From Sphingomonas sp. SORGH_AS_0879 (GTDB taxonomy: Bacteria; Pseudomonadota; Alphaproteobacteria; Sphingomonadales; Sphingomonadaceae), in the NCBI RefSeq assembly GCF_030819175.1, contig NZ_JAUTBJ010000002.1, positions 2,118,001 to 2,182,000 on the forward strand: a stretch of DNA of 64,000 bases. Direction: 5' to 3'. This document shows positions 4,598 through 23,889 of the stretch, in pieces (within the stretch, counting starts at the first letter, position 1; every line of letters starts with the position of its first letter). The position numbers and the translations under genes are program-made. The notes under the pieces are model-generated. The model was not told the DNA's origin. It saw only the letters and a list, made by a program, of their open reading frames with translations, and ran no database searches.

Positions 4598-5254
4598 ATG
4601 TCTCTCATTGATCTATCGATCGAGGACCGCGGTTTCGCGCCCGCGTCGATCGCGCTCGCCGTCCGCACCATTGGTGCCTGTCCCGCCGCCCGCAACAGGC
4701 CGGATGCCCGCATCCTCTGCGGCATCGGTGTGCTCACCGTCACGCCGGATGATGATGGTGGCTGCCGGTTCACCAGCGACGCCCGGTGTCTCGGCGAAGG
4801 CGATACGCCCCGCGATCTGCTCGACTGGCTGGAGCAGCGCATCCCCGCGACCGGCGCTGCAATAAGCTGGGACAATTGGGGCCGCGTCCCCCGCCGACTG
4901 CTGGCGCTCGCCGATCCTGCGCGCCATCCGCGCCTCATCACCGCCGCTGGCGACACGGCCGGGCGGTGGCGTGACATGCCGCGCGGCCACACGTGGCATA
5001 TGCATCAGGCACAGGCGCATCTCATGCCGTGCATCTGCCGCCCCGGCACTCCCGTCGACGAATGCGACGCGGCCACGCCGACCGCGCTGCTGCCGGATCC
5101 GGCGACCACCGCGGTCGAGTTGATCGGCGAGGCGATCGCCGGCTGGCAGTGCTGGGCACGACTATTCGGCGATTTCGACGACGCCGACCACCCCGCACAA
5201 GCCGCGCTTCGCGCCCTCGACCGCTGGCGCGCCGATCAGCCCGCCACCCGCTGA
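4598..5254 (+). CDS. Hypothetical protein in the same accessory gene set
   Basis: A 218-residue protein almost identical in length to its upstream neighbour. The ATG at 4598 is chosen because CCAGGA precedes it and because the in-frame extension upstream runs over the end of the previous gene. The segment TPRDLLDWLEQRIPATGAAI closely parallels PADALLAWLDQRLTTDGATI in the neighbour, suggesting a common ancestor. The middle part has several His and Cys residues (HTWHMHQAQAHLMPCICR), which may bind metal. No named domain is recognised. Confidence 0.6.
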   Translation: MSLIDLSIEDRGFAPASIALAVRTIGACPAARNRPDARILCGIGVLTVTPDDDGGCRFTSDARCLGEGDTPRDLLDWLEQRIPATGAAISWDNWGRVPRRLLALADPARHPRLITAAGDTAGRWRDMPRGHTWHMHQAQAHLMPCICRPGTPVDECDAATPTALLPDPATTAVELIGEAIAGWQCWARLFGDFDDADHPAQAALRALDRWRADQPATR

Positions 5255-5304
5255 CCTTCCCCCAACCGACATGCGGGCGCGCGAGCGCCCGCCGGAGAAC
5301 CACC

Positions 5305-6168
5305 ATGCACCACGACCTGAACTCGCTCTGGAAGAGCAACACGCCCCGTGTCGTCGTCGTCCTCGATGCCGAACTCGCCTACGACCATGAAGCGCACGCG
5401 CGCTATCAGTCCGCCGAACGTTTCCTCCCCGCCGATGCCGCGCATCTGTCGCCGCGCGAACTGCGTACCGACCCGCGCGTGACGCCGCGCTGGCCGTGCC
5501 ATCGGATCACCACCCTGTCGTGGCTGGTGATGACCGAGGCGGAAGACGGCCTGCGCCCGGTGCGCCTGGAAACGCGCGGCCTGCCAGAGCAGGACGAAGC
5601 CGCTGTCCTGAAAGCATTTTTCGCCGAGATGGAGCAACTTGGCCGCGTCCAGATCGTGACGTGGGGCGGATTCCACTCCGACCTGCCGCAGATCTTGATC
5701 GGGGCGATTGACGCCGGACTGCGGCTGCCGTCTTGCCTCACCGGCCTGTTGTCGCCGTGGCGGCGCGACGCATCGGGCCATCTCGACCTTTGCAGCGAAA
5801 TGTGCGGCGGGGCGGCACCAGCGCACCTTGCAGAGGTCGCCGCCCGCCTCGGCATGCCAGTCAAACTCACCTGTCGGCCGAACCTCGTCTCCCAACTGAT
5901 GCAGCAGGGTAAATGGCCGGCAGTCCGCTCGGTCGCCGAGGGGGACGTGCTGACCACCGCGGCGCTGCTGATGCGCTGGCGTCACCTCTCCGGCGGCACC
6001 GTTTCCGTCCTGGAGGCAATGCGGCGACTGACCGGCTTCGTCGCCGAGCACTGCGCCCACCGCCCCTACGCTGCCGATTGGCAGCGATACGCCGACGGCC
6101 TGCTTGGCGCGTCCTACGCGGCGGAAGCCCGCAAATTGGAAACCCTGGGAGCCTCGGCCTGCAACTGA
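5305..6168 (+). CDS. Predicted 3'-5' exonuclease of the PolB-like DEDD type
   Basis: A 287-residue protein. It starts at the ATG at 5305, preceded by GCCGGAGA; an upstream open extension overlaps the previous gene and is ignored. It resembles the family of predicted exonucleases related to the DNA polymerase B proofreading domain (PF10108). Motif I reads VVVLDAELAYD (Asp-x-Glu), motif II TWGGFHSDLPQI, and motif III lies around EGDVLTTAALLMRWRHL. These residues would bind two metal ions and remove 3' nucleotides. It follows two proteins with similar local patterns and is followed by small hypothetical genes. The family call rests on motifs seen by eye; activity is inferred. Confidence 0.6.
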   Translation: MHHDLNSLWKSNTPRVVVVLDAELAYDHEAHARYQSAERFLPADAAHLSPRELRTDPRVTPRWPCHRITTLSWLVMTEAEDGLRPVRLETRGLPEQDEAAVLKAFFAEMEQLGRVQIVTWGGFHSDLPQILIGAIDAGLRLPSCLTGLLSPWRRDASGHLDLCSEMCGGAAPAHLAEVAARLGMPVKLTCRPNLVSQLMQQGKWPAVRSVAEGDVLTTAALLMRWRHLSGGTVSVLEAMRRLTGFVAEHCAHRPYAADWQRYADGLLGASYAAEARKLETLGASACN

Positions 6169-6220: not shown

Positions 6221-6760
6221 ATGAGCGTCATCGAATCAATGGACACGATGCAGGCCTGGACCGTCGGCCTGCGCCTGGCGATGGGCTATCCGCAATATGC
6301 GCCTATCGGCAATCCGATCGCCTATGCCTCGGGCGGGCGCAAGAACTTCGCCGAGGCGCTGGAGATCGCCGCCATCGTCGAACAGACGAACCGAGACTTC
6401 GTCCTCGTGCAATTCGACCTGCCCATCGCCGACGGGCCGGTCGGCATCTCGCTCGCCACCCGCGGCAACGTCCTTGTCGAGTGGCACGCGGACGTGCAGC
6501 CCTACCTCGCCAGCGACGACGGGGTCATCGAACTGCTCGGCGACACGCATCGCTGGTCAGTCGGGCCACGCTCCATCCTGACCGCGTCGCCCCTGCCGTC
6601 CCGCAGCCGCATCAAACGCGGCATCGAACGCGCGCACCGGCGCTGGCGGGAAGCTGCGGATCAGATGCACGGCATCGAATTGCACGGCTCCCTCTTCATC
6701 CCCGCCGGGGGCAGCTACTCCGACGCGATACCGACGGAGGTGGTGCGGGCGGCGGCGTGA
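6221..6760 (+). CDS. Hypothetical protein (intact member of a duplicated pair)
   Basis: A 179-residue protein of unknown function. The start is supported by AAGGA 9 nt before the ATG at 6221. It is mixed alpha/beta in character, with no signal peptide or membrane segment. A basic stretch near residues 130-145 (SRSRIKRGIERAHRRWREAA) could contact nucleic acid. A second, broken copy of this gene lies at 7759-8136, and the sequence after the stop is also duplicated. The frame is intact here, so this is presumably the functional copy. Confidence 0.65.
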   Translation: MSVIESMDTMQAWTVGLRLAMGYPQYAPIGNPIAYASGGRKNFAEALEIAAIVEQTNRDFVLVQFDLPIADGPVGISLATRGNVLVEWHADVQPYLASDDGVIELLGDTHRWSVGPRSILTASPLPSRSRIKRGIERAHRRWREAADQMHGIELHGSLFIPAGGSYSDAIPTEVVRAAA

Positions 6761-6823
6761 GGCGCCACGACAGCCGATGACTATCGGGCGGACATGACCT
6801 ATCGTCCGCCCGATGCATCAGCT
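6340..6823. repeat. Direct repeat, copy A
   Basis: The segment from within the hypothetical gene at 6221-6760 to about 60 bases past its stop recurs, diverged, at 7759-8196. The two copies share long runs, for example CTACCTCGCCAGCGACGACG and a near-identical tail with a GGGCGGAC/GTCCGCCC hairpin. Copy B lacks about 25 bases present here and has an internal stop. The pair marks a tandem duplication, with two unrelated genes between the copies. Confidence 0.85.
6785..6812. terminator. Hairpin CGGGCGGAC/GTCCGCCCG, possible terminator
   Basis: A perfect 9-bp stem with a 10-base loop, 25 bases after the stop of the preceding gene. There is no T run, so termination is only possible. The same hairpin, with one stem base changed, recurs at 8162-8187 in repeat copy B. 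Confidence 0.45.
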
Positions 6824-7268
6824 ACACCAGTGCGAGGGCCGCATCGATACAAGACAGTCGAGGAAGCCGATCAACCCTCTCAATCTGCTCCACTGGACCA
6901 ACTGGGTTCGCAGTTCGCGCCGGAACATCGTTCACATGTCCTTCCGGGAGGATTGGGCCGGCGTCCACACGGTCGCGCTGGTGTTCGTCGACGATGACGA
7001 CCGCTCCCTCGTCGCCGAACACTGCTGGCTCTGGCTGCCGCAGAGCGGCGGTCGCTGCTGGCTCATCCCGGATGGCGAGGGTTGGGGCGCATACCGGCTC
7101 GACGCCGACCTGAAGCTGCGCCACCATCCACGCGCCCCGGCGCGCGGTGGAAAGGCACGGCAGGACGGCTGCATGCGCGCTTATCGGCGCTTCGCCGATA
7201 TCCTCGACGAGCAGGACGCCAGCGGCGTCGAGCTACCGCTGCCGGAGCAGCTGCGCACCGCGGCGTGA
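6813..7268 (+). CDS. Hypothetical protein
   Basis: A 151-residue open frame of unknown function. The true start may be later, at ATG 6936 (MSFREDWAG), because the first 40 residues are Arg-rich and lack a ribosome binding site. The better-defined core runs from SFREDWAGVHTVALVFVDDDD to the end and has many Trp and acidic residues. It lies between the two copies of the direct repeat. Confidence 0.45.
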   Translation: MHQLHQCEGRIDTRQSRKPINPLNLLHWTNWVRSSRRNIVHMSFREDWAGVHTVALVFVDDDDRSLVAEHCWLWLPQSGGRCWLIPDGEGWGAYRLDADLKLRHHPRAPARGGKARQDGCMRAYRRFADILDEQDASGVELPLPEQLRTAA

Positions 7269-7415
7269 CACGGCAGAAAATTCAGTATGTTGGAAGAAGT
7301 AGATGCTCGTCGTCATTGGCGAGCATCGTCATTAAAGATCACTGATTTCAGCTGCCGCGCAAAGATGTATTTTTAACGGTTTGGCGCTGATATCCATATA
7401 GAAAGGGTATCAAAT

Positions 7416-7751
7416 ATGCACATCTATCGCATTCATGTCGGCAACAAATTTCATACCGCTTCTTTGCTCGTTGCGTCTCCCGATGAAGGAAGTGCGCTAT
7501 CTGCGGTCGAAAACTTCCTTCAATCAGAGGAGGTTCGCGAGATGGAGCGTAGAGAGATTGAATGGTCTAAGGAGGTGGAAAGCAAAGAGATTGTTTCCGA
7601 AAGTGATCACCGTTATGCCACTTTCGGCCATCCCGTCGAGAGATGCGATGATCTTTATGATCAAAATGACGGGCAGGGCCCCTCCTTCGTAAATGACCTC
7701 TTGGTCAATCCTGGCTCTGTGATCGTGGATGACAGCTGGAACAACGGCTAG
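7416..7751 (+). CDS. Small low-GC hypothetical protein
   Basis: An 111-residue acidic protein whose base composition is clearly less GC-rich than all neighbours, in both the gene and the AT-rich 145 bases before it, which suggests separate transfer. AAAGGG lies about 9 nt upstream of the ATG at 7416. The start MHIYRIHVGNKFHTASLLV looks like a beta-strand N-terminus, and the centre is charged and helical (EEVREMERREIEWSKEVE). No family is recognised. It sits between the two copies of the direct repeat. Confidence 0.6.
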   Translation: MHIYRIHVGNKFHTASLLVASPDEGSALSAVENFLQSEEVREMERREIEWSKEVESKEIVSESDHRYATFGHPVERCDDLYDQNDGQGPSFVNDLLVNPGSVIVDDSWNNG

Positions 7752-7758
7752 ACAGATG

Positions 7759-8136
7759 TGAAAAACTTGCCGAGGCGATTGAGATCGCCACCATGGTCGA
7801 ACAGACCAAGCGCGACTTCGTCCTCGTCCAATTTGATCTGTCCGTCGCCGACGGGCCGGTCGGCATGCGGACTTGTCGAATGGCACGCCGATGTGCAGCC
7901 CTACCTCGCCAGCGACGACGGGGTCATCGAACTGCTCAGCGACACGCATCGCTGGTCGGTCGGACCACGCTCCATCTTGACCGCGTCGCCGCTGCCGTCC
8001 CGCAGCCGCATCGAACGCGCGCACCGGCGCTGGCGGGCAGCCGCCGATTAGATGCGCGGCATCGAAATTCCCCGGTCGGATTTCATCCCCGCCGGCGGCA
8101 GCTATGCCGATGGAGGCGCTGCGGGCGGCGGCGTAA
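7759..8136 (+). pseudogene. Decayed duplicate of the 6221-6760 gene
   Basis: Homologous to the 3' two thirds of the gene at 6221-6760. The 5' end is missing. About 25 bases are deleted near 7868, which shifts frame. A CAG codon has become TAG near 8048 (CCGATTAG), and further small changes follow before the TAA at 8134. Many blocks are still nearly identical to the intact copy, so the duplication is fairly recent. No product is expected. Confidence 0.85.
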
Positions 8137-8196
8137 TACGCCACGACAGCCGATGACTATTGGGCGGACATGACCTATCGTCCGCCCGATGAATCA
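7759..8196. repeat. Direct repeat, copy B
   Basis: Diverged second copy of 6340-6823. It includes the decayed gene and the hairpin GGGCGGAC/GTCCGCCC at 8162-8187, and ends about 40 bases before the chosen methyltransferase start. Recombination between the copies would delete the two genes in between. Confidence 0.85.
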
Positions 8197-8238
8197 GTCC
8201 CGCCGAGGCGGGCCAGCCTGTTGGACCTGACGAACCGA

Positions 8239-11089
8239 ATGAACGCCGTCGAAATCGAAGAAGCCGTATCCGAACTCGTCCAGCAGCCGTTCGACGCCGC
8301 CGAATTCCCGTTCCAGTTCATCACCGCGTTCGGCGCCAAGAAGGCGACCGTCGACCGCCTGCGCGCGACGAAGAACGGCACCAACCAGTCCGATGTCGGC
8401 GGCGTCCTGCAGCGCAACAACATCCATATCGGCATCGCCCCCGTCGGGCAGGTCGGCGCGACGCTCGCCGCCTTGCGCGCCAGCCCCAAGACCGCCAGCG
8501 CCAAGGCCAAATTCCTCCTCGCCACCGATGGCGAGACCGTCGAGGCCGAGGATTTGGTCGGCGGCGACGTCATCGCCTGTCCTTATGCCGAGCTGCCGCG
8601 CCATTTCGCGACCTTCCTGCCGCTAGCTGGCATCTCGACGGTCAAGGAGATCAAAAACAATCCCATCGACGTCAAGGCGACGGGGAGGCTCAACAAGCTG
8701 TATGTCGAGCTGCTGAAGGACAATCCGGACTGGGCGACCGAGGAACGGCGGCACGAGCTGAACCAGTTCATGGCGCGGCTGATCTTCTGCTTCTTCGCCG
8801 AGGACACCGGCATCTTCCGCGAAAACCAGTTCACCGCCACCATCACCCAGATGAGCCATGCCGGGCACGGCAGCGGCGACGATCAATGGGGCAATACGCA
8901 CGAGGTGCTGACCGAGCTGTTCCGCGCGATGGATACGCCGGTCACACATCAGGGTAATCTCGACGACCGCTATCGCCGCGCGGTGGGTATCCGGCCCTAT
9001 GCCGACGTCTTCCCCTATGTGAACGGGGGCTTGTTCACCGGCGCGACCGAGAGCCCGCGCTTCAGTCGTACTGCGCGCGCCTATCTGCTGCGCGCGGGCG
9101 AGCTGGATTGGAAGGAGATCAACCCGGACATTTTCGGTTCGATGATCCAGGCGGTCGCCGACGATGGCGAGCGGGGTGAGCTGGGCATGCACTATACCAG
9201 CGTGCCCAACATCCTGAAGGTGCTGAACCCGCTGTTCCTCGACGGCTTGCGCGAGCAGCTGGAGGCGGCGGGCGACAGCCGCCAGAAACTGCGCAACCTG
9301 CGGCGGCGGCTGGCGAACATCCGCGTGTTCGACCCGGCGTGCGGATCGGGCAATTTCCTGGTCATCGCATACAAGGAGATGCGCGCGATCGAGGCGGTGA
9401 TTGTCGAGCGGCTGGGCGGCGAGGCCAATCTGAAGCTGGAGGACCGGCGCAGCGTCATCCCCTTGAGCAACTTCTACGGCATCGAGATCAAGGGCTTCGC
9501 CGCTGAGATCGCCGCGCCTCGCACTGCTGATCGCCGAGTTCCAGGCGGACTGCCTGTACCTCAGCCAGCAGGAAGCGCGCGCGATGGTGCTGCCGCTGCA
9601 CAAGACGGGGCAGATCACGGTCGGCAATGCGCTGCGGCTGGATTGGCTGGAGGTATGTCCGCCGGTTAAGGTGGTGACTGGGGCGGAGCAGGATCTGGGC
9701 GGAGCAACGGGGCGCTTGGCGCTGGAGGAAAACGGGCTGGGCGCCGATGAACAAGTTGAGACATATATCTGCGGAAATCCCCCATATGTAGGCAGCAAAC
9801 GCCAAATCGACGCTCAGCGTGAGGACCTTGCGCTGCTGCTGAAGGGCATCGCTTCGAAATTCGCTACACTTGACTATGTCTCCGGCTGGTTCGTCAAAGC
9901 ATCCAAGTACATCGATACCTGCAATGCGCGTTTTGCCTTCGTATCGACAAATTCAATTGCACAGGGTGAACAGGTTTCTCAGCTATGGCCAATCATCCTG
10001 GATGGAAAGAGGCACATTCGCTTCGTCCATCGTTCCTTTCTGTGGCGTAATCTAGCGAGCCATAATGCTGGCGTGACTTGCGCGATCATTGGCGTTGATG
10101 TGGACCCGCAAGGATCGCGCATCGTATATGATGACGGTGTCGCCAGGGAAGTCAGGTCCATCGGGCCATACTTGGCACCTTCGGACGAGGTAATCGTCGA
10201 AAAAGTAAGCCGTCCCACGGGCGGGCGGGCGTCGATGAATTTCGGAAATCACCCCTATTACGGCGCCGCTCTGATCTTAGGTCGAGAGGAGGCGGATGAG
10301 ATCGCCAAAGAGTATCCGGAGGCTAAGGCCTTCTTCCGACCGCTCTATGGCACTGTGGAATTAGTCAATGAACGTCCGCGTACGTGCATCTGGATCACAG
10401 ATCCAATAGCAGAAGAAGCCATTGCAATTCCGCCTATTGCGAGGCGGGTTGATGATGTCCGCATAGCAAGATTGGCTGCTTCCAAGGACTTGGCCGCTCA
10501 GAAACTTGCCGGAACGCCGTATCGGTTCCGTGACCAAAATGAACCTTCGACGCATCTTATTGCCGTTGCAAGACACAGCTCGGAATCGAGACCTTACCTG
10601 CCTGCCGCCTTATGCAGTCCCTCAGCGGTAATTTCGGATGCTGCTTTCGCGGCTTACGATGCAGAACTTTGGAACTTTGCTCTCATCGTGTCTCGGCTGC
10701 ATCTGGTGTGGGTGGAAACGGTCTGCGGGAAAATCAAAACCGATTTCCGCTACTCCAACACGCTCGGCTGGAACACCTTTCCCGTTCCCCGGCTCACCGA
10801 ACAGGACAAGGCCGACCTCACCCGGACCGCCGAGAACATCCTGCTCGCGCGCGAGGCAAATTTCCCCGCCACCATCGCCGACCTCTACGACCCGGAGGCG
10901 ATGCCGGACGACCTGCGCCGCGCGCATGAGGAGAATGACGAGGTGCTGGAGCGCATCTATATCGGCCGCCGCTTCCGCAACGATACCGAACGGCTGGAAA
11001 AGCTGTTCGACCTCTACACCAGGATGACCGCCGATGCCGGGCCGAAGGGTGGGGCCAAGGCTAAGCCGCGCGGTAAGAAGGCGGCGTGA
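8239..11089 (+). pseudogene. MmeI-like adenine DNA methyltransferase, split by a +1 frameshift
   Basis: A class I SAM-dependent DNA methyltransferase of the MmeI-like architecture, about 950 residues if joined. Motif I DPACGSGNF lies near residue 365 and motif IV NPPY near 513, the pattern of N6-adenine methyltransferases; the target-recognition region follows. The N-terminal part lacks an evident D-ExK nuclease triad, so cleavage is probably done by partner genes. One extra base near 9512-9518 (GCCGCGCCTC where CCCGCCTC-like sequence is expected) moves the frame. The first part reads to about 9510 and the second is in the next frame to 11089. The start ATG 8239 is preferred over an upstream GTG-like extension that runs through the repeat. 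It may be a real inactivating mutation or a sequence error. Confidence 0.8.
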
Positions 11090-11142
11090 GGGCGGCACCG
11101 TCCGTCCTTCGCCTCGCTTGATCGAACGGCGCCAATCCATTA

Positions 11143-11162
11143 TGTATCGCAACTGAGATACA
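11143..11162. promoter_or_regulatory. Operator-like dyad before the toxin-antitoxin genes
   Basis: TGTATC and GATACA arms separated by 8 bases, lying 12 bases before the antitoxin start. Type II antitoxins normally bind such palindromes with their toxin to repress their own promoter, so autoregulation is the natural inference. The same promoter would also drive the helicase and GIY-YIG genes. Confidence 0.5.
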
Positions 11163-11173
11163 CACGGGAGGCG

Positions 11174-11446
11174 ATGATGGCGACGTCCATGCTCCACGTC
11201 CGAATGGACGAACAGTTGAAGGCGCAGGCGACGGCGGCGCTCGACGCGATCGGGCTGTCGGCGTCGGACGCGGTGCGCCTGCTGTTCCACCGCATCGTCG
11301 CCGACCAGGCCTTTCCGCTGGAGCTGAAGGTGCCCAACGCGGATACGCGCGCGGCGATGGAGGAGATCGCGCAGATGAAGGCGGACGGTCGCGAGCCGTT
11401 CCCTACGGCCGAGGCGATGTTCGCGAGCCTGGAGCGTGGCGAATAA
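11174..11446 (+). CDS. RelB/DinJ family antitoxin
   Basis: A 90-residue protein with the DinJ pattern: a ribbon-helix-helix N-terminus (SMLHVRMDEQLKAQATAAL), then a helix LGLSASDAVRLLFHRIV-like segment and an acidic C-terminal tail that would wrap the toxin. GGGAGG precedes the ATG. It overlaps the next gene by 11 nt, typical of toxin-antitoxin pairs. It would neutralise the YafQ-like toxin and repress the operon through the dyad just upstream. Placement inside a restriction-like operon is unusual. Confidence 0.85.
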   Translation: MMATSMLHVRMDEQLKAQATAALDAIGLSASDAVRLLFHRIVADQAFPLELKVPNADTRAAMEEIAQMKADGREPFPTAEAMFASLERGE

Positions 11447-11753
11447 ACGCGCGCGGCATCCCCGCGCCTGTCGATACGCCAAAGCATTCACCAAGGATTG
11501 GGACCGGCTCGATCGCTCGGGCCGATACGATATGCGTCAGCTCAAGTCGGTGATCCTTCACCTGATCGCCAATGACGGGCCGCTTGGACCGGAATGGAAG
11601 GATCATCCGCTCAAGGGCGATTGGGCGAGCTACCGCGAATGTCACATCGGCGGCGACTTTCTGCTCATTTACCAGATCGACGAAACGATGGGCAAAAGCG
11701 GCACCGTCTATTTCGCCCGCGCCGGCACTCATAGCGAGCTGTTCAACGAATGA
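11436..11753 (+). CDS. YafQ-type mRNA interferase toxin
   Basis: A 105-residue RelE-fold toxin starting at GTG 11436. Recognisable YafQ features are the early RYAKAFTKDWDRL, the central EWKDHPLKGDW and the late YRECHIGGDFLLIYQID. The His of DHPL and the late Asp/Arg-rich strand match the catalytic region of YafQ, which cleaves mRNA on the ribosome. Its stop overlaps the helicase start (ATGA), so the toxin and helicase are translationally coupled. Loss of the operon would also lose the antitoxin, which would penalise the cell. Confidence 0.85.
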   Translation: MANKRARHPRACRYAKAFTKDWDRLDRSGRYDMRQLKSVILHLIANDGPLGPEWKDHPLKGDWASYRECHIGGDFLLIYQIDETMGKSGTVYFARAGTHSELFNE

Positions 11754-13837
11754 CTTCCAGCACCATCCCCGCCGTCCGCCTCGTCACCGGCCAGACCGGC
11801 GCGTCCTCCAGCGCCAACGAACTCGGCATGCGGCCGATGCAGGCGCGGGCCTATGCCCATCGCGGCGAGCAGTATCTGCTGATCAAGTCGCCGCCCGCGT
11901 CAGGCAAGTCCCGCGCGCTGATGTTCATCGCACTCGACAAGCTGCACAACCAGGGCGTCAAACAGGCAATCATCGTCGTGCCCGAACGCTCGATCGGCGG
12001 CAGCTTCGCCGACGAGCCGCTGTCGGCGCACGGCTTCTGGGCCGACTGGACGGTGAAGCCGCACTGGAACCTGTGCAACACGCCCGGCGCGGACGATGTG
12101 AAGGTCGCCAAGTCGAAGGTGAAGGCGGTCGGCGAGTTCCTGGCCTCGGACGACACGGTGCTGGTCTGCACCCACGCCACCTTCCGCTTCGCGATCGACG
12201 AGCTGGGCATCGCGGCGTTCGACGGGCGGCTCATCGCGGTGGACGAGTTCCACCACGTTTCAGCGAACCCGGAAAACCGGCTGGGCGCGCAGTTGGGCCA
12301 GCTGATCGCGCGCGACAAAGCCCATCTGGTCGCGATGACCGGCAGCTATTTCCGCGGCGACGCGGTCGCGGTGCTGTCGGCGGAGGACGAGGCGAAGTTC
12401 ACCACCGTCACCTACACCTATTACGAGCAGCTCAACGGCTATCGCTATCTGAAGACGCTCGACATCGCGTACAGCTTCTACACCGGCCCCTATATCGATA
12501 AGATCGGTGAACTACTCGATCCGGCGGTCAAGACGATCGTCCATATCCCCAGCGTCAACAGCCGCGAAAGTACCAAGCGCGGCAAGCATACCGAGGTCGA
12601 GGAGATCATGGATCACCTCGGCACGTGGAAAGGCACCGACGCGCAAACCGGCTTCCACCTGATCGCGACGGCGGCGGGCGCGACGATCAAGGTCGCCGAT
12701 CTGGTCGACGACGATCCCGCCAAGCGCGACCGCGTGGCGGCGGCCTTGAAAAGCCCGGAGGCGCGGAGCGACCGCGACCATGTCGACGTCATCATCGCGC
12801 TGGGCATGGCGAAGGAGGGGTTCGACTGGATCTGGTGCGAGCACGCGCTGACCGTCGGCTATCGCTCCAGCCTGACCGAGATCATTCAGATCATCGGCCG
12901 CGCCACCCGCGACGCGCCGGGCAAGACGGTCGCGCGCTTCACCAACCTGATCGCCGAACCCGCCGCCGCCGATGACGTGGTGGCCGAAGCGGTCAACGAC
13001 ACGCTGAAGGCGATCGCTGCCAGCCTGCTGATGGAACAGGTGCTGGCCCCGCGCTTCGAGTTCACGCCGAAGGATGCGGGGCCGAAGGATGGGTTCGTTT
13101 ATGGTCCCGATGGGTACGTCGAGGGCCGCACCAATGTCGGGTGGAACGAGGAACGCGGCCAGTTCCACTTCGAGTTGAAGGACCTGGTGCTGCCCAGCTC
13201 GACCGAGGGCAAGCGCATCTGCGCCGAGGACATCAACGAGGTCATCACCAGCTTCATCCAGGACAAGCAGGCGATCGAACGCGGTCTGTTCGACACCGAG
13301 GTGGTGCCGGAGGAACTGACTCAGGTCCGCATGGGCAAGATCGTCCGCGACCGTTACCCCGACCTCAGCGAGACGGACCAGGAGGCGATCCGCCAGCACG
13401 CCATCGCCGCGCTCAACATCACCCAGCAGGCGGCGAAGATCGTCACCGAGACGGCGAGCGACGACGGCACGGGTGAATTGAAGGCAAACACCTCCTTCGT
13501 CGATGGCGTCCGCAAGTTCATGAACGTGCGCGAGCTCGACATCGACCTGATCGACCGGATCAATCCGTTCGATGCCGCCTATGCGATCCTCGCCAAGGCG
13601 ATGAACGAGGGCACGTTGCGGCAGGTGCAGGCCGCAATCTCGGCGCGCAAGACCACACTTAGCGAGGAAGAGGCGCGCGCCTTCGCGATACGTGCGGTCC
13701 AGTGGAAGCGCGAACGCGGCCGCGCGCCCGAGGCGACGTCGCAGGATCCGTGGGAACGCCAGCTGGCGGAGGGCGTCGCCGCCTTCGCCCGTTTCCGCGC
13801 CAAGGCCCAGGCCGCGGAAGCCGCCGCTCATGGCTGA
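11750..13837 (+). CDS. SF2 DEAD/DEAH-like helicase of a restriction-like operon
   Basis: A 695-residue superfamily 2 helicase. Walker A is PPASGKS (about 47-53), Walker B VDEFHH (about 164), motif III MTGSY and motif VI IIGRATRD (about 382). The C-terminal 250 residues are helical and may contact DNA or partners. The start overlaps the toxin stop by 4 nt and the end overlaps the GIY-YIG gene by 8 nt, so all are coupled. Together with the methyltransferase upstream and a nuclease downstream this is the translocase expected of a restriction-modification-like defence module. I cannot match the set to a named system from memory. Confidence 0.85.
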   Translation: MTSSTIPAVRLVTGQTGASSSANELGMRPMQARAYAHRGEQYLLIKSPPASGKSRALMFIALDKLHNQGVKQAIIVVPERSIGGSFADEPLSAHGFWADWTVKPHWNLCNTPGADDVKVAKSKVKAVGEFLASDDTVLVCTHATFRFAIDELGIAAFDGRLIAVDEFHHVSANPENRLGAQLGQLIARDKAHLVAMTGSYFRGDAVAVLSAEDEAKFTTVTYTYYEQLNGYRYLKTLDIAYSFYTGPYIDKIGELLDPAVKTIVHIPSVNSRESTKRGKHTEVEEIMDHLGTWKGTDAQTGFHLIATAAGATIKVADLVDDDPAKRDRVAAALKSPEARSDRDHVDVIIALGMAKEGFDWIWCEHALTVGYRSSLTEIIQIIGRATRDAPGKTVARFTNLIAEPAAADDVVAEAVNDTLKAIAASLLMEQVLAPRFEFTPKDAGPKDGFVYGPDGYVEGRTNVGWNEERGQFHFELKDLVLPSSTEGKRICAEDINEVITSFIQDKQAIERGLFDTEVVPEELTQVRMGKIVRDRYPDLSETDQEAIRQHAIAALNITQQAAKIVTETASDDGTGELKANTSFVDGVRKFMNVRELDIDLIDRINPFDAAYAILAKAMNEGTLRQVQAAISARKTTLSEEEARAFAIRAVQWKRERGRAPEATSQDPWERQLAEGVAAFARFRAKAQAAEAAAHG

Positions 13838-15071
13838 CATGACCGACGACGACATTCTCGCCGAACTGGGCGTCGATCTCAGTCCCAAGAAGGTCCGCGC
13901 CCGCACGCCACGCGAGGAGCGGATCATCGCGGGCTTCGAGGACATCGTCCGCTTCCGGGAAGAGCATGGCCGCGCGCCACAGCATGGCGAAGGCCGCGAC
14001 ATCTTCGAGCGGCTCTATGCCGTACGCCTTGACCGGCTCCGCGCGCAGGCCGACTGCCGCGAGCTGCTGGCGGACATGGACGTGCACCGCCTGCTCGACG
14101 GCGCAACCAATGCCGATGCGATCGACGAACTGGACGACAGCGCGCTACTGGCCGAACTTGGGATCGAGCCCGATGCGTCGAACGACATCACCCAGCTGCG
14201 CAACGTCCGCTCCAACGCCGACCGTCAGGCGGCGGAGGAAGTCGCCAGCGCCAAACGCTGCCCGGATTTCGCGACGTTCAAGCCGCTCTTCGACCAAGTG
14301 CAGGCCGAAATCGAAACGGATATCCGCACAACGCGGCCCTTCGTCCGCGACCTCGGCATGTCGAAGGCCGATATCAAGCAAGGCGAATTCTTCATCGTCG
14401 GCGGCCAACTGGCCTATGTGGCCGAGGTGGGCGAACCGATCGCGGCGCCCAATGGCGAAACCGATGCCCGCCTGCGCGTCGTCTATTCCAACGGCACCGA
14501 AAGCGACCTGCTGCTCCGCTCGCTCCAACGCGCGCTGTACAAGGACGAGGGTGGCCGCCGGATCACCGAACCGACCGCCGGCCCGCTGTTCGACGGTGCC
14601 GCGAAGGCCGAGGTCGAACCCGACCACCTGCCGACCGGCACGCTCTACGTCCTGCGCAGCCGCTCGACGCACCCCACTATCGCTGCGCACCGCGACCTCA
14701 TCCATAAGATCGGCATCACCGGCGGATCGGTCGAGTCGCGCATCGCCGGCGCCGCCGACGACGCTACTTATCTCCTGGCCGGGGTGGACGTGGTCGCCAC
14801 GTACAAATTGTACGACGTACACCGTTCCCGACTGGAAGCACTGATCCACCGCGTCCTCGAACCCGTCCGGTTCGACGTCGAGATACCCGACCGCTTCGGC
14901 AAACCGGTTCGCCCGCGCGAATGGTTCCTGGTGCCGCTGCACATCGTCGACGAGATTGTCGCCTGCATCGCCAACGGAGCGCTGGCCGGAATGACCTACG
15001 ATCCGCAAACCGTGGCTCTGGCTTCGGTCAACACACATGGCGGATCGGTCAATGATCAACGACTCACGTAA
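13830..15071 (+). CDS. GIY-YIG (T5orf172/MUG113-like) nuclease-family protein
   Basis: A 413-residue protein starting at ATG 13830 inside the end of the helicase gene. The N-terminal part is helical and charged. The middle has a small beta domain (about 180-240). The C-terminal domain from about residue 270 has the GIY-YIG-like pattern LYVLRSR ... HKIGITGGSVESRI, followed by a conserved Leu/Glu-rich helix (SRLEALIHRVL) and WFLVPL. This matches the T5orf172/MUG113 branch, whose members are predicted endonucleases. It is the probable cutting subunit of the operon. Catalysis is inferred from the family only. Confidence 0.75.
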   Translation: MADMTDDDILAELGVDLSPKKVRARTPREERIIAGFEDIVRFREEHGRAPQHGEGRDIFERLYAVRLDRLRAQADCRELLADMDVHRLLDGATNADAIDELDDSALLAELGIEPDASNDITQLRNVRSNADRQAAEEVASAKRCPDFATFKPLFDQVQAEIETDIRTTRPFVRDLGMSKADIKQGEFFIVGGQLAYVAEVGEPIAAPNGETDARLRVVYSNGTESDLLLRSLQRALYKDEGGRRITEPTAGPLFDGAAKAEVEPDHLPTGTLYVLRSRSTHPTIAAHRDLIHKIGITGGSVESRIAGAADDATYLLAGVDVVATYKLYDVHRSRLEALIHRVLEPVRFDVEIPDRFGKPVRPREWFLVPLHIVDEIVACIANGALAGMTYDPQTVALASVNTHGGSVNDQRLT

Positions 15072-15268
15072 CAAAACCATTTAGGGGATGACCCATTTCC
15101 GGTCGCTCGCGAAGTCATTCACGCTTCCCGGTTTCAGCCATTCGTTCACCGCAACCATCTGCGTTGTGGCGCGCCGCGGACCGCTAGGCACGCCGCCCGC
15201 TGCCGGACCGCGTGACACGGGGCGGACCACGCGTCGTCATCGACGCATGGTATGTTAGTTATGCGGTA

Positions 15269-16537
15269 ATGATCCTCGACCCAATCCCGTTCGACGGCTC
15301 GATCGAGCGCGCCGGCCTCAGCGTCCCCGTAACGTTCACTGCCGCCATCGACGACGACGGTGAGCTCCGCCTCGAGTTCGGACCAATCAAGCCGAGCCAC
15401 GCTGCCGCCTCGATCGTCCCGGAGCAGCCGCTGCTGACCCCACTCCAGCCGCTCACCTTGCGCGGACGCGCCGCCGAACATTGGAGCTTTGAGAGCTCGG
15501 AATTCTATGTCGGCCGATGGTCGCGCCGCCCCGATCATGTCGAGATCACCGGCTCGTGCGGCACTGCCGAGCTCAGCCGACCGGCTAAACCCGATCATCA
15601 CGATGCCTGCGCTTGGTTCTTTCGCAAGCTCGCAGCGATCCACCCGATCGTCGCAAAGACAAAGGCGTGGAGCATCGTCCTACGTGGCTATCGCGACGAT
15701 GCCGACCAGGAACCCGTCTCACTCTTGGCGGTCGAGAGTGAGCGCCAGGAAAATGAGGCATGGTGGCAGGAAACCGAACGCCTCCTAATCCACGTGCAAC
15801 GCGTCCTGTCGCTGGCCTGCGGCGTCTATCTTCTGCCCGTCTATGAGCAGCGCCACCGGGCGGGCCGCTTCACGATCCGGATCGCGCAGCGCGGCCGTTC
15901 GCCCGCCCCCTATCTCGCCCCGTTCCGCGACCTTTTTATGGAGGAGATCTTTGCCGCCGCCGTTCGCTCGTTCGACGATCATCCGGCCGAGGTGGCAAGG
16001 CTTGACCCCGCCATCCGCTGGCTGACGGCCCCGGTCGCGCTTGCAGAATCGCGGCTCATGAACGCGATGAGCGCGCTCGAATGCATCCTCGCCAGCTCCG
16101 ACGTCGAGCAGTTCCACCTGCCCGACGCCGCCGCATTCGATACGTTGCGACAGAAGATCGCCAAATTCCTTAAGGCCGAGGCAGCTCCCCGGAAGATGGC
16201 GGGCAAGTTGCGCGAGCTGAACCGGCGCTCGTTCGCCGAGAAGCTGCGGGACCTGCTCTCCCGTCAGCCATTTCCGGCTCAGGACTTCCCGGACGAATGG
16301 CTCAAGGGCGCCGTCGATGCCCGGAACGTCATCGTGCACACCGGCGTCTCGCCCGAGCTGTCGATCGACGATCCCTCGCTAATCGACCATGTCGTGCGCG
16401 TCCGCGAGATCGTCATCCGGTTGATGCTCGCCGCGATCGGCTTTGAGGGCCAGTATCAAAGCTGGCTGCACGGATGTGCTGACCTGCGCTTCCCGTCCTG
16501 CAAGCCGGTGGCTGGGGCGACGATCTCTCCTGCCTGA
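15269..16537 (+). CDS. HEPN-domain protein, ApeA-like
   Basis: A 422-residue protein starting at ATG 15269; the open frame extends upstream but without support. The N-terminal half is beta-rich (about 1-150). The C-terminal half is helical and ends in a HEPN-like segment with RNVIVH, matching the R-x4-H motif of HEPN ribonucleases, at about residue 355. This order, a beta-rich N-terminal domain followed by a HEPN domain, resembles ApeA, an abortive-infection RNase. It stands alone between the GIY-YIG gene and qatA, with gaps of 197 and 133 bases, and may be an independent defence gene. The family call is moderate. Confidence 0.6.
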   Translation: MILDPIPFDGSIERAGLSVPVTFTAAIDDDGELRLEFGPIKPSHAAASIVPEQPLLTPLQPLTLRGRAAEHWSFESSEFYVGRWSRRPDHVEITGSCGTAELSRPAKPDHHDACAWFFRKLAAIHPIVAKTKAWSIVLRGYRDDADQEPVSLLAVESERQENEAWWQETERLLIHVQRVLSLACGVYLLPVYEQRHRAGRFTIRIAQRGRSPAPYLAPFRDLFMEEIFAAAVRSFDDHPAEVARLDPAIRWLTAPVALAESRLMNAMSALECILASSDVEQFHLPDAAAFDTLRQKIAKFLKAEAAPRKMAGKLRELNRRSFAEKLRDLLSRQPFPAQDFPDEWLKGAVDARNVIVHTGVSPELSIDDPSLIDHVVRVREIVIRLMLAAIGFEGQYQSWLHGCADLRFPSCKPVAGATISPA

Positions 16538-16670: not shown

Positions 16671-18654
16671 ATGTTGCTGGCGGACAATGAAACGCGTGTC
16701 GATCTGCTCAACAATGAAGCGATCGCGAGGACGATCGTCACCTTGCTCCGCGACCGCCCCGACAAGCCCGTGACCGTCGGTGTCCACGGCGACTGGGGGG
16801 CGGGCAAGTCGAGCGTCCTAGAGATGATCGAGGCATGCTTCGAATCCGAGTCCAAGGCGCTCTGCATCAAGTTCAACGGCTGGCGCTTCCAAGGTTTCGA
16901 GGACGCCAAGATCGCGCTAATTGAGGGGATCGTCACCGGCCTTATCGAAAAGCGGCCCGCGCTCACCCGGGCCGCGATTGCGGTCAAGGATGTGTTCCGG
17001 CGCATCGACTGGCTCAAGGTGGCGAAAAAGGCAGGCGGACTCGCCTTTAATGCCTTCACCGGCGTGCCGACCCCCGAACAAATCCATTCGGCGATCGGCC
17101 TCGTGCAGGGCGCGCTGGCCGATCCGGCGAAGCTCGCGACCAAGGAGAACGCCAAGAAGGCGTTCGAGGAAGTCGACGGTCTCCTCAAGGAGAAGGACGA
17201 CACGACCAACGTTCCCGAGGAGATCAACGCCTTCCGCAAGGCCTTTGACGAACTCCTCGACCAGGCCGGAGTCACCCAGCTCGTCGTCCTCATCGACGAT
17301 CTCGACCGATGCCTGCCCGACACCGCGATCGAGACTCTAGAGGCGGTGCGGTTGTTCGTCTTCACCTCCCGTACCGCGTTCGTCGTCGCCGCCGACGAGG
17401 CGATGATCGAATACTCGGTGCGCAAACATTTCCCCGATCTTCCCGACACCACCGGACCGCTGAGCTACGCACGCAACTATCTTGAGAAGCTCATCCAGAT
17501 TCCCTTCCGCATCCGCGCCGCTGGGCGACACCGAAACGCGCATCTATGTGACATTGCTGCTGGTCGCGGCCGAACTCGGCGAGGACGACCCCGCCTTCCT
17601 AGAACTCATTACCGTGGCGCGCGAACGGCTCAAACGCCCCTGGCTTGAGGGGCCACTCGAGGCGCAAACGGTGCGTTCGGCGCTCGGCGACAAAGCCGCC
17701 AGCGCCAACAATGCGCTGACGCTCTCTGACCAGATCGGCCCGATCCTTGCGAGCGGCACGCAGGGCAACCCGCGTCAGATCAAGCGCTTCCTCAACGCGC
17801 TCCTGCTCCGCGAACGGACCGCAGACGCCCGCGGGTTCGGCGACGACGTGAAATTGCCCGTCCTGGCCAAGCTGATGCTCGCCGAGCGCTTCCTACCTCG
17901 CCTGTTCGACCAGATCGGCGCCGCCGCGGCCGCGTCGAGCGACGGACGCTGCCGCGATCTCGCAGCCCTCGAGACCGCAGCCGCCTCACCCGAGCCCGAC
18001 CCCGCCGCACCTCCGCCCAAGCCAGCGGACGCCTCCCCCGCCCCGCGACCGGCCGCCGGTAAGGGAGCCGCCAAGCTGCAGCCGGTCGCGAACGATGCGA
18101 GCGGGCCGCTCGGCGAATGGCTGACCTCGCCGGTGATCCGCGCTTGGGCCGAGGTCCAGCCTGCGATCGGGGTCGAGGATCTGCGCCCCTATCTGTTCAT
18201 CGCCAAGGATCGGAAGGACTATTTCGGCGCTGCCTCGGTGCTCGGCAGCCTCGCCGGCGTCGTCGAGCAGCTATTCGGCGGTAAATTCGTCGTCCAGGCC
18301 ATGGAAGGCGATCTCGCCCGCCTCGCGACGCCGGAGGCGGCGCGGATCTTCGAAGCGGTGCGTGCGCGGATCGTCGGCGGCGACGCCTTCGACTTGCAGC
18401 CCGCGGGCGTCGATGGGCTCGCAGTGCTCGTCAAGGCGCAGCCTTCGCTCCAAGGCAATCTGCTCGACTTCCTTGAGGCGCTGCCCCGCGAACGGCTTGG
18501 TGTTTGGGTGACCAGCGGCTGGGAGACGGCGTTGAAGGACCCCGAAACCCGCGCCCGCTTTGGACGGCTCCTCACCGCCTGGGGCAAGGACGGCTCTCCA
18601 ATCCTGAAAGCGGCGGCCGGCAATGTTGCCCGGACCCGGCAGGGAGGCCGCTAA
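16671..18654 (+). pseudogene. qatA: QatA, KAP-family P-loop ATPase, split by a +1 frameshift
   Basis: First gene of a QatABCD anti-phage operon, about 660 residues if joined. Walker A is GDWGAGKSS (about 40-48), Walker B LVVLIDDLDRC (about 203-213) and the sensor-like region FVVAADEAMIEYSVRKHF, all typical of KAP NTPases. After LEKLIQIPFRIR the frame is lost. The continuation LGDTETRIYVTLLL is in the next frame, so one extra base lies near 17513-17521. The second frame then runs to the TAA at 18652-18654, which overlaps the qatB ATG. Everything else is well conserved, so the defect is recent, a programmed shift or a sequence error. Confidence 0.85.
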
Positions 18655-19538
18655 TGGGAACGTCGAGCGTATTCGGCGGCCAAGGCGGCGCCAGCCCGCT
18701 GGTCCCGAGCTTCGTCGGCGACGCCGGCGCGCCATCGGCCGATGATGCCGCCGACGCGACCTACCGCGACGAAGATGGCGACGGCACACCGCCGCCAAGC
18801 GATCCACCGCAGCCGCCGCAACGCCCGCCAGTACCGCCCAATGCCGATCCCACGCGTTTCACGGCCGCCCGCAACAACTTTTCGCGCTTCGCGAGCTCGG
18901 GCGGCACCGACCGCGCCAGCCTCGGTCGCGCGCTCTCCCACTACGTTGACTCATCGACTGGCGGCGCGCGGGGCGCGGCCGGTCGGATGGGATCGGCGCG
19001 CGGCGCGGGCAGCCGGCTCCTCGGCTTCCTCGCGGACGCGACAACGCGCGGCATCACCGAGGCGTTGCGCGCGCTCGATCTCGCCGATCTCGCCGGACGG
19101 CCGATCGAAGAGGTCTTCCTCGGCCTCGCCGATTACATCTGCCCCGACGGCGGCTCGGTCGACGAGGGGATCGCACGCGAGGCCTTCATCGAGACGATCG
19201 TCGACTTGGCGGCGGCCGGCATTACCGACCTCGACACGCTAAGCGAGGACCAGATGCAGACGGTGTTCGAGCTTTACGCCACTAACGCCATCGAAGCGCG
19301 GCTGTGCAACGACATCGGCACCAAGGCCGTCATGCTGCCGGCGAGCGCGCGCGACGCCGCCAGCGTCCAAGCCCAGCTCAACGATTTCATCCGTCGTGGC
19401 GTCGCCGACGCCCTATCGGCCGCACGCGTCGCGGCGGCGGCGCTCACGCCCGATCGCGTCCTCGGCTTCGTCGCGCGGGTCTACGAGCAGGCTTTCGACA
19501 TCCTGCGCATAATGGGCGACGCGGAGGCGAACGCATGA
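18654..19538 (+). CDS. qatB: QatB, anti-phage Qat system protein
   Basis: A 294-residue protein in the QatB position, starting at an ATG that overlaps the qatA stop (TAATG). The N-terminal 60 residues are low-complexity and Pro-rich. A Gly/Arg/Ser-rich segment follows, and the rest is helical (TEALRALDLADLAGRPIEE). QatB has no known activity, but deletion of any qat gene abolishes defence in described systems. The call rests mainly on operon position between a KAP ATPase and a QueC-like gene, together with length and the SSVFGGQGG-type start. It overlaps qatC by 4 nt (ATGA). Confidence 0.85.
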   Translation: MGTSSVFGGQGGASPLVPSFVGDAGAPSADDAADATYRDEDGDGTPPPSDPPQPPQRPPVPPNADPTRFTAARNNFSRFASSGGTDRASLGRALSHYVDSSTGGARGAAGRMGSARGAGSRLLGFLADATTRGITEALRALDLADLAGRPIEEVFLGLADYICPDGGSVDEGIAREAFIETIVDLAAAGITDLDTLSEDQMQTVFELYATNAIEARLCNDIGTKAVMLPASARDAASVQAQLNDFIRRGVADALSAARVAAAALTPDRVLGFVARVYEQAFDILRIMGDAEANA

Positions 19539-20902
19539 ACAGGCATGTCATCATCGGCCGGTTCGGGCCGGGCGATCGCCTCTCCGTGCCCCGCGCCGCA
19601 GACGAGGTGATGACCCGGCTCGACCTCCTCAACGGCAATGATAGCCTCGATCATGGCATCGGCCGGGCGCTAGCCGATCTCGCCCGCGAAGGCGTCTTCC
19701 CCACCGATCTCGGAGTCGATCTCATCATCCTCGCTGCGCATGTCCACGCCGCCGACACGCGCATCGCGCGGTGGATGGACAGCCAGGACGGCTGGACGCG
19801 CGAGATCCGGCTCGTCGTCCCCGTCGCCGATCCGCGCCGCTGGGCTGCGGCCGGCCCGATCTTCGAGCGAATGCTCGGCTTCCTGACCGGCGATCGCTGG
19901 ACGGTCGGCTTCCGCTCACGCCCGCGCCGTCACGCGCAGCTGATCGCGCAGCCCTCGACGTTGCTGCCGGCCCGCTTCGATCACCTTGCACTGTTCTCGG
20001 GCGGGCTCGACAGCCTGATCGGGGCGATCGATGCGCTTGAGGCGGGCAAGACGCCGTTGTTCATCAGCCATGCCGGCGAAGGGGCAACCAGCGAGGCGCA
20101 GGCGACGCTGCAGGCGGCGCTCGGTGCTGCCTACCGCGGCCGCGGCTTCGCACGGCTGCGGCTTTGGATGGCGTTCGCGCAGGGTTTGGTGGCGCGATCG
20201 TCGGGCGAGGACACGACGCGCGGCCGCTCGTTCCTGTTCTTCGCGCTCGGCGTCATGGCCGGGACCGGCTTGGCGGAGCCGTTCGTCCTGCACTGCCCGG
20301 AGAATGGCTTGATCGCGATCAACGTCCCGCTCGACCCGATCCGGCTCGGCGCGCTCAGCACGCGCACCACCCACCCCTTCTATATCGCGCGCTGGAACGA
20401 GGCATTGACGGCGCTCGGCATCCCCGGCCGGATCGAGAACCCCTATTGGGACAAGACCAAGGGCGAAATGGTTCGAGCGTGCGCGAACCAGACGTTGCTC
20501 CGCGGCATTGCTGCGTCGTCGCTGTCCTGCTCGTCGCCGACCAAAGGCCGCTGGCAAGGGATCGGCGTCCAGCATTGCGGCTATTGCCTGCCGTGCCTGA
20601 TTCGACGGGGGTCGCTCACCGCCGGGCTAGCGCCTGCGGCCGACCCGACCACCTATACGCTGGCTGATCTCACCGCCCGGGCACTCAACACCCGCGAGGC
20701 GGAAGGCGTCCAGATCCGCTCGTTCCAGTTCGCGATCGACCGGCTTCGTCGCCGGCCCGCGCTGGCCGAGCTCCTCATCCACAAGCCCGGGCCTCTGTCC
20801 GACGAGAATGCCGCACGACAAACGGCGCTCGCCGGTGTATATCGCCGCGGCATGGACGAGGTGGGCAATATCCTGGCCGGAGTGCGGACACGGCCTCTGT
20901 GA
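19535..20902 (+). CDS. qatC: QatC, QueC-like protein of the Qat system
   Basis: A 455-residue protein related to the 7-deazaguanine enzyme QueC. The PP-loop ATP-binding motif SGGLDS lies near residue 154, and a zinc-binding cluster HCGYCLPCLIRRG near 347-359. QueC makes preQ0; QatC is thought to use related nucleotide or protein-modification chemistry in phage defence, with the target in Qat still open. The N-terminal 140 residues are extra relative to QueC. The start overlaps the qatB stop and the stop overlaps the qatD start, so all four genes are translationally coupled. Confidence 0.9.
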   Translation: MNRHVIIGRFGPGDRLSVPRAADEVMTRLDLLNGNDSLDHGIGRALADLAREGVFPTDLGVDLIILAAHVHAADTRIARWMDSQDGWTREIRLVVPVADPRRWAAAGPIFERMLGFLTGDRWTVGFRSRPRRHAQLIAQPSTLLPARFDHLALFSGGLDSLIGAIDALEAGKTPLFISHAGEGATSEAQATLQAALGAAYRGRGFARLRLWMAFAQGLVARSSGEDTTRGRSFLFFALGVMAGTGLAEPFVLHCPENGLIAINVPLDPIRLGALSTRTTHPFYIARWNEALTALGIPGRIENPYWDKTKGEMVRACANQTLLRGIAASSLSCSSPTKGRWQGIGVQHCGYCLPCLIRRGSLTAGLAPAADPTTYTLADLTARALNTREAEGVQIRSFQFAIDRLRRRPALAELLIHKPGPLSDENAARQTALAGVYRRGMDEVGNILAGVRTRPL

Positions 20903-21669
20903 CGGTCGCCGAAACGGCGCCGGGCGTGCGCGGCGTCGACTTCCACTGCCATCTCGACCTGTTCCTAGACCACGACGCCGCGATTGCACGTGCGGAGGCG
21001 GCCCGCATCTACACGCTCACCGTCACCACCACCCCGCGTGCTTGGTCGCGCAACCATGAGCTTACCCGCGATCGGCGCTTCGTGCGCGCCGCCTTAGGTC
21101 TCCATCCGCAGCTCGCCGGCGAGCGCGAGGCCGAACTCCGACTCTGGGAGCGCCACCTCGCCGAGACACGCTATGTCGGCGAGGTCGGGCTCGACGGGGG
21201 GCCTCGCTTCTACAAGACGATGGAAGCGCAGCGACGGGTCTTCCAGCGCATCCTCGAATGCTGCGCCGAAGCCGGCGACAAGGTGCTGACCGTTCACAGC
21301 ACCCGCGCCGTCAAGCCCGTGCTCGATCTGATTGAAACCTGCTTGCCGCCTGACCGGGGCCGGGTAGTGCTGCACTGGTTCGGCGGCAGCCGCAGCGAGG
21401 CGGGGCGCGCTTTGGCCCTCGGCTGCTTCTTCTCGGTAAACGCCACGATGCTAGCGACTGATCGCGGCAAGGTGCTGGTAGCGTCGCTGCCACCCGATCG
21501 CTTACTTACCGAAACCGACGGACCCTTCACGCCGGGGCGTGATGGCCCGGCGCACCCAGAAGATGTAGAGTTGGCAGTCGAGGCGATCGCCGGCCTACGC
21601 GGGAGCGCCGCCGAAGAGGTCAGGAGCGGTCTGATCCGGACGCTGCGTGACCTGCTCGCGATCGGCTGA
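20899..21669 (+). CDS. qatD: QatD, TatD-like metal-dependent nuclease
   Basis: A 256-residue TatD-family protein starting at GTG 20899, overlapping the qatC stop (GTGA). Metal-binding features are visible: HCHLD near residue 16-20, GEVGLDG near 95, VHSTR and HWFGG near 134-155, and LLTETDGPF near 203. TatD enzymes are DNA exonucleases/deoxyribonucleases. In Qat systems QatD is the likely effector or processing nuclease. It is the last gene of the operon. Confidence 0.9.
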   Translation: MTVAETAPGVRGVDFHCHLDLFLDHDAAIARAEAARIYTLTVTTTPRAWSRNHELTRDRRFVRAALGLHPQLAGEREAELRLWERHLAETRYVGEVGLDGGPRFYKTMEAQRRVFQRILECCAEAGDKVLTVHSTRAVKPVLDLIETCLPPDRGRVVLHWFGGSRSEAGRALALGCFFSVNATMLATDRGKVLVASLPPDRLLTETDGPFTPGRDGPAHPEDVELAVEAIAGLRGSAAEEVRSGLIRTLRDLLAIG

Positions 21670-23622: not shown

Positions 23623-23889
23623 ATGAAGCGGAAGCAGTTTTCGGAAGAGCAGATCATCGGCATCCTGAAGGAGGCCGAGGCGGGTGCGGTGGTGACGGAG
23701 CTGTGCCGCAAGCACGGGATGTCGAGCGCGACTTACTATGCGTGGAAGGCGAAGTTCGGCGGCCTGGAGGTGTCCGACGCAAAGCGCCTGCGGTCGCTCG
23801 AAGAGGAGAACGCCCGGCTCAAACGGCTACTGGCGGACACGATGCTGGACAATGCGGGGTTGAAAGACCTGCTGTCAAAAAAGTGGTGA
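23623..23889 (+). CDS. IS3-family transposase OrfA
   Basis: An 88-residue helix-turn-helix protein ([20 protein letters not shown], then a leucine-zipper-like helix). This is the usual length for the IS407 group. A-AAA-AAG near its end (23876-23884) fits the IS3-family -1 slippery site, which would join it to OrfB to make the active OrfAB transposase. OrfA alone normally regulates transposition. Confidence 0.9.

Follow-up and report, generated by a model that had tools for sequence, protein, structure and literature searches.

A DnmA-YeeB-YeeC-type cassette with RelB-YafQ cargo in a Sphingomonas genome

The window analysed here, a 64,000-nucleotide stretch of the genome of Sphingomonas sp. 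SORGH_AS_0879 (4.33 Mb in two contigs, 99.99% complete; nearest named relatives mostly Sphingomonas), carries on one strand at 8239-15071 an array encoding an MmeI-like adenine methyltransferase (M), a RelB-YafQ toxin-antitoxin (TA) pair, a superfamily 2 (SF2) helicase (H) and a T5orf172/GIY-YIG protein (N). By its architecture the M-H-N core is a member of the DnmA-YeeB-YeeC group, and the array as a whole is probably a restriction-modification (RM) system of that type with an embedded, autoregulated TA module, a reading drawn from sequence comparison. The core cassette is already known; the new part is the slot between M and H, which holds the RelB-YafQ pair as optional cargo, together with a restriction arm that would be operated by the TA module. 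The features are as follows.

8239..9669, + strand: M, first reading frame (MmeI/DnmA-like adenine methyltransferase; Pfam; PADLOC PDLC03598, E 7e-108)
9584..11089, + strand: M, second reading frame (rest of the methyltransferase domain, target recognition domain (TRD) and C-terminal domain; Pfam; PDLC03598, E 2.5e-152)
11143..11162, + strand: candidate RelB operator, a palindrome with 6-base arms and an 8-base spacer, just 5' of relB
11174..11446, + strand: RelB/DinJ-family antitoxin (PF04221 and TIGR02384, both above cut-off)
11436..11753, + strand: YafQ-family toxin, GTG start (PF15738, 93.8 bits, cut-off 30; TIGR00053, 80.5 bits, below its cut-off of 87.25)
11750..13837, + strand: H, SF2 DNA helicase/translocase, YeeB-like (PF00270; conserved helicase motifs)
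13830..15071, + strand: N, GIY-YIG (T5orf172) nuclease, YeeC-like, 413 aa, start ATG at 13830 (PF10544, PF13455)

The protein families that a first-pass annotation of this DNA had named (MmeI-like methyltransferase, RelB, YafQ, SF2 helicase and T5orf172/GIY-YIG) are all present, with MmeI_N, MmeI_hel, MmeI_Mtase, MmeI_TRD, MmeI_C, RelB, YafQ_toxin, T5orf172 and MUG113 scoring above their Pfam cut-offs and the DEAD domain of H passing its cut-off of 26 bits with 27.2. The overlaps of 4 to 11 bases that it described from the antitoxin onward were measured as 11 (relB/yafQ), 4 (yafQ/H) and 8 (H/N) bases; M and relB do not overlap and lie 84 bases apart.

Conservation and relatives of the M-H-N cassette

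A scan of a GTDB genome collection with H yielded 577 confirmed loci, and in the best 80 of these, which lean to close relatives, M lies upstream of H in 78 and N downstream in 79. The misses lie near contig ends: at loci L053 and L098 the contig starts only some 1 kb ahead of H, and at L099 it stops with H. Two further draws, one across the phylum (299 genomes) and one within the family of the window (149 genomes), each count the window's own genome and partly overlap the best-80 set (for example, G256 with L068 and G304 with L061). H was present in 17 of the 299 phylum genomes, N was adjacent in all 17 (that of G195 has a stop within the match and a short open frame), and M was upstream in 15, the other two loci beginning at a contig end; M lies up to about 7 kb from H in two of these genomes (G013 and G068). 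Within the family H is patchy, occurring in 17 of 149 genomes. Genomes G412 and G356 each hold two separate helicase copies, and two cassettes may coexist in each.

The cassette also occurs on plasmids. H has matches on 261 of 72,556 plasmid records, and in 153 of these the match spans 80% or more of H. The PLSDB tables, which are incomplete, list no genes other than M, H and N for a Pediococcus plasmid of 7.7 kb; a Staphylococcus plasmid carries the same trio, and an Acetobacter plasmid encodes a helicase with 67% identity to H that is annotated as restriction/modification component YeeB. The M-H-N order thus recurs from Alphaproteobacteria to Bacillota and is more than chance. Because this spread is patchy and mobile with a fixed gene order, the pattern fits a defence system. 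The expectation that adjacent methyltransferase, helicase and GIY-YIG genes form a conserved set was borne out, the partners of H and N being constant rather than unrelated, and so was the proposal that modification enzyme, motor and nuclease reside on separate genes of one restriction-like system.

The closest described counterpart is found in Bacillus subtilis, where DnmA, an MmeI homologue without a nuclease motif, is reported to make N6-methyladenine (m6A) at GACGAG and is followed by YeeB, a helicase, and YeeC, a T5orf172 protein, an arrangement also kept in other species (PMC9973331, PMC7261158). According to the same two papers, a Type I-like RM system was proposed by Morgan 2009. The window shares with this set the gene order, an MmeI-like methyltransferase without an N-terminal nuclease motif (here a split gene), an SF2 helicase followed on the same strand by a T5orf172/GIY-YIG nuclease gene, and a defence-island setting, but differs in the TA pair between M and H and in the frameshifted M. 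The MmeI_N and T5orf172 profiles both match in the B. subtilis control genome, and YeeB and YeeC of B. subtilis are reported to be without stretches found in Vibrio crassostreae. The first-pass annotation knew of no named system with this set; its core is in print as DnmA-YeeB-YeeC (PMC7261158, PMC9973331). A match in the defence-system databases was found only in part, as the core fits the described system but has no dedicated helicase or nuclease match in PADLOC-DB 2.0, where H drew a marginal PbeA match (7e-4) and N none. In such a scanner this widespread cassette would therefore show up as a Type IIG-like methyltransferase alone. Matches of M to DrmMI (7.6e-22) and PglX (2.3e-5) fall far below its IIG match (2.5e-152).

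Other named systems fit less well. M shares its methyltransferase, spacer, TRD and C-terminal domains with the Type IIL enzyme MmeI (Pfam MmeI_*), which is also its only solved relative (PDB 5hr4; phmmer E 3.7e-120). In MmeI, however, a PD-ExK nuclease is part of the same polypeptide (PMC7261158), whereas here cutting would fall to the separate H and N. A Type IIL identity was rejected, M having no conserved ExK and aligning to 5hr4 only from residue 91. A search for a conserved nuclease motif in the N-terminal domain of M found any ExK in 4 of 74 relatives and never in the same column, in agreement with the earlier statement that M has no evident nuclease triad. Type I and III systems depend on an ATP-driven SF2 motor that requires a specificity or modification subunit, as would H in this cassette. 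In those systems a single protein, HsdR or Res, unites motor and nuclease, and HsdS is a distinct subunit in Type I; in the window the motor and the GIY-YIG nuclease are encoded by different genes and the TRD lies inside M, so that a Type I RM assignment was set aside. Cargo genes embedded in operons are a further likeness to Type I systems (PMC12255303). The BREX and DISARM systems have further core genes (PglZ and BrxC; DrmA and DrmB), and no BREX or DISARM match was present among the neighbours scanned.

H and N are fully open in the window, and the helicase motifs of the one and the catalytic motifs of the other are conserved among relatives, with KIG, R305 and E337 invariant in N (numbering from base 13827). 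The predicted fold of N weakly matches Slx1, and that of H matches many SF2 cores, including HsdR and HamB. M carries methyltransferase motif I in its first piece and the NPPY motif in its second. The TRD block of M is hypervariable. Across 272 pairs of relatives, picked by more than 85% identity in the spacer/methyltransferase I part, median identity is 83% in the N-domain, 87% in that same spacer/methyltransferase I part, 47% in methyltransferase II, 43% in the TRD and 86% in the C-domain.

The M/H junction as a cargo slot

The 78 readable M/H junctions comprise 30 with direct coupling of M to H, two with short gaps and 46 with at least 150 bases; because H was taken at its longest open frame, individual lengths may be out by tens of bases. 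RelB-YafQ fills nine of the 46 and other sequence the remaining 37. By comparison, only one of 79 H/N junctions exceeds 150 bases (Fisher p 2e-17, uncorrected for kinship); in that locus, L051, a partial copy of N lies at 12134-12403 between H and the full N. With the H/N junction nearly closed, embedding in the M/H slot can serve to single out candidate defence genes. We found no description in the literature of RelB-YafQ inside this cassette or of its cargo slot, which does not prove that none exists.

The other cargo is diverse, with YhcG at seven loci, RhuM at six, SLFN/AlbA at five, GmrSD at three, Fic and PDDEXK_4 at two each, and ParE and a Tmn-like protein at one each, besides PLD-like cargo at three loci (below the Pfam cut-off), a nameless 251-aa family in six slots and several further nameless families. 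YhcG, RhuM, PDDEXK_4 and GmrSD match the PADLOC candidates PDC-S02, PDC-S05, PDC-S26 and HEC-05, and the Tmn cargo also matches PADLOC. The 414-base junction of L100 matched no cargo family. Seven slots (L022, L023, L060, L061, L067, L069 and L082) hold, partly as fragments, a family of at most about 400 aa that appears GIY-like on visual inspection; its member in L022 matches nothing in Pfam or PADLOC. In L080 (3016-9213) the 7 kb cargo combines RhuM with a 454-aa protein that matches no Pfam family and a Tmn-like YobI ATPase of 1217 aa. The non-TA cargo is often closely fitted to M, its first gene starting between -12 and +30 bases from the M stop in 27 of the 37 non-TA loci, and in 18 of the 37 it is coupled to H as well. 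The three nearest relatives of the window, with 96% helicase identity, hold other cargo, and the slot therefore turns over fast.

The RelB-YafQ module

Contrary to the idea that the TA pair might be constant in the set, RelB-YafQ is an optional cargo of the cassette, present at only nine of the 78 M/H junctions. The 10 TA copies, the window included, all group within a single 17-row Sphingomonadales clade of the helicase tree (one row is labelled Arthrobacter), with four changes needed and at least three forced. The module is of RelBE/DinJ-YafQ type in family, gene order (a RelB-family antitoxin gene, then an overlapping YafQ/RelE toxin gene), overlap and upstream palindrome, but it differs from those systems in that it directly precedes and overlaps a restriction-type helicase gene, the yafQ/H overlap being the four bases ATGA in 10 of 10 TA loci.

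The candidate operator, a palindrome of the type TATCTC-N-GAGATA, lies 27-57 bases 5' of the RelB match in all 10 TA loci, a count that is descriptive since the pattern was derived from the same loci; as a control, the remaining 71 loci (2.6 million strand-bases) gave no match. Close YafQ copies (at least 63%) occur in eight of the 149 family genomes, including that of the window. Four lie beside H, and the three of these beyond the window (L162-L164) all have the palindrome; the other four are free-standing, in genomes outside the H-positive set, one with the same kind of palindrome (L161), one with a variant (L167) and two with none (L165 and L166). Because some free-standing copies carry it, the palindrome probably arrived with the TA module. 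TTGACT occurs upstream of the palindrome in eight of the 10 TA loci, the window and L025 being without it. As yafQ and H leave no room for a terminator between them, transcription of H and N probably depends on the TA promoter, and that of M on upstream sequence.

This arrangement raises the tentative and rather doubtful idea that RelB-YafQ acts as an RM controller in one Sphingomonadales lineage, whereby ample RelB would keep H and N low, and its breakdown under phage attack would raise both of them along with the toxin. A related arrangement is known for DarTG2, which is embedded between the specificity and restriction genes of a Type I RM operon controlled by the repressor RptR, although TA family and RM type are different and the repressor there has its own gene at the head of the operon (PMC12255303). 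The TA-bearing form of the cassette would allow a direct test of whether a TA operator controls restriction. Alternatively, the TA pair may itself be a working part of the defence, with YafQ as a fail-safe by which a cell whose restriction has been inhibited is killed or stalled. The recurrence of the pair in the same slot (nine of 78 loci plus the window), the invariant four-base coupling of yafQ to H and the DarTG2 example (PMC12255303) are consistent with this possibility. However, 69 of 78 copies do without the pair, the three near-identical relatives have other cargo, and half of the eight close YafQ copies are in genomes without an H match, all of which make a fail-safe role unlikely.

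Proposed mechanism, the split methyltransferase and the surrounding island

The mechanism that we propose builds on what can be read from the locus and its relatives, namely gene order, coupling, the motifs of H and N, the variable TRD, the frameshift in M and the cargo slot, and takes m6A marking and the dependence of restriction on M from related systems. With its swappable TRD, M would read an asymmetric site and, like DnmA, mark self DNA by m6A; on unmarked DNA it would act as a specificity platform that loads H, which would travel along the DNA with ATP and recruit N, whose GIY-YIG site would cut. By analogy with Type III systems (PMC12707154), cutting would probably need two inverted unmarked sites, because one-strand marking of an asymmetric site would leave unmarked daughter sites after replication. 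RelB-YafQ would be one of many cargo modules in the M/H junction, bringing its own palindrome region.

Several findings weigh against such an RM system. The B. subtilis set itself is reported not to restrict plasmid uptake or three phages (PMC7261158, PMC9973331). The models of H and N are of middling confidence (mean predicted local distance difference test score, 71.5 each), and a scan of 7000-15300 for promoters yielded no sigma-70-like site, which also speaks against a TA promoter for H and N. Finally, M of the window is frameshifted, as is, among the 14 other M genes of the phylum draw, that of one distant relative (G150), which lies in two overlapping frames. The earlier placing of a methyltransferase in the array is correct as to the MmeI-like family, but not as a single intact gene: residues 1-425 of an intact relative's M align in one frame (to 9513) and residues 426-940 in the next (9515-11062). 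Apart from the frameshift the window M is colinear with this relative and no other part is missing. Because M is split, modification would be off in the window genome, and restriction probably too, unless an assembly error underlies the frameshift. The split in G150 (L130, 1456-4169) lies near the same middle part as that of the window, which may be chance or a weak hint that M is a two-piece or switchable gene.

These frameshifts, together with that of the downstream QatA, could also indicate a defunct relic, with M as a present or former orphan regulatory methyltransferase, H and N in decay and TA addiction keeping the locus in the genome; the authors of the B. subtilis work concluded that their set is a relic (PMC9973331). 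Such decay would have to be recent, M being otherwise colinear, and it is difficult to reconcile with the fully open H and N, their conserved motifs and an M that is intact in all 74 of the best-80 loci that cover it. In V. crassostreae, moreover, deletion of the dnmA/yeeB homologues is reported to increase sensitivity to some phage subclades and not others (PMC9973331). We consider a relic improbable and continue to prefer a DnmA-YeeB-YeeC-type RM system. That the TA, helicase and nuclease genes are unrelated neighbours in a defence island that also holds QatABCD, a HEPN protein and a transposase-type gene is scarcely credible, since order and overlaps conserved across phyla refute it for M-H-N and leave it only for the TA pair.

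The QatABCD anti-phage system lies immediately downstream of the cassette (16671-21669), with QatA split by its frameshift into 16671-17648 and 17482-18654 and with QatB, QatC and QatD matching nearly whole profiles. Between cassette and Qat genes, 15212-16537 encodes a protein with a C-terminal Apea-like HEPN domain, possibly another defence gene. Beyond the Qat genes an integrase-core (rve) transposase-type gene at 23703-24788 suggests a mobile island, and an imperfect direct duplication just upstream of M (6350-6821 and 7769-8197; 83-94% in pieces) is perhaps a scar of its insertion. Further upstream, 4993-6168 encodes a predicted 3'-5' exonuclease related to PolB (PF10108).

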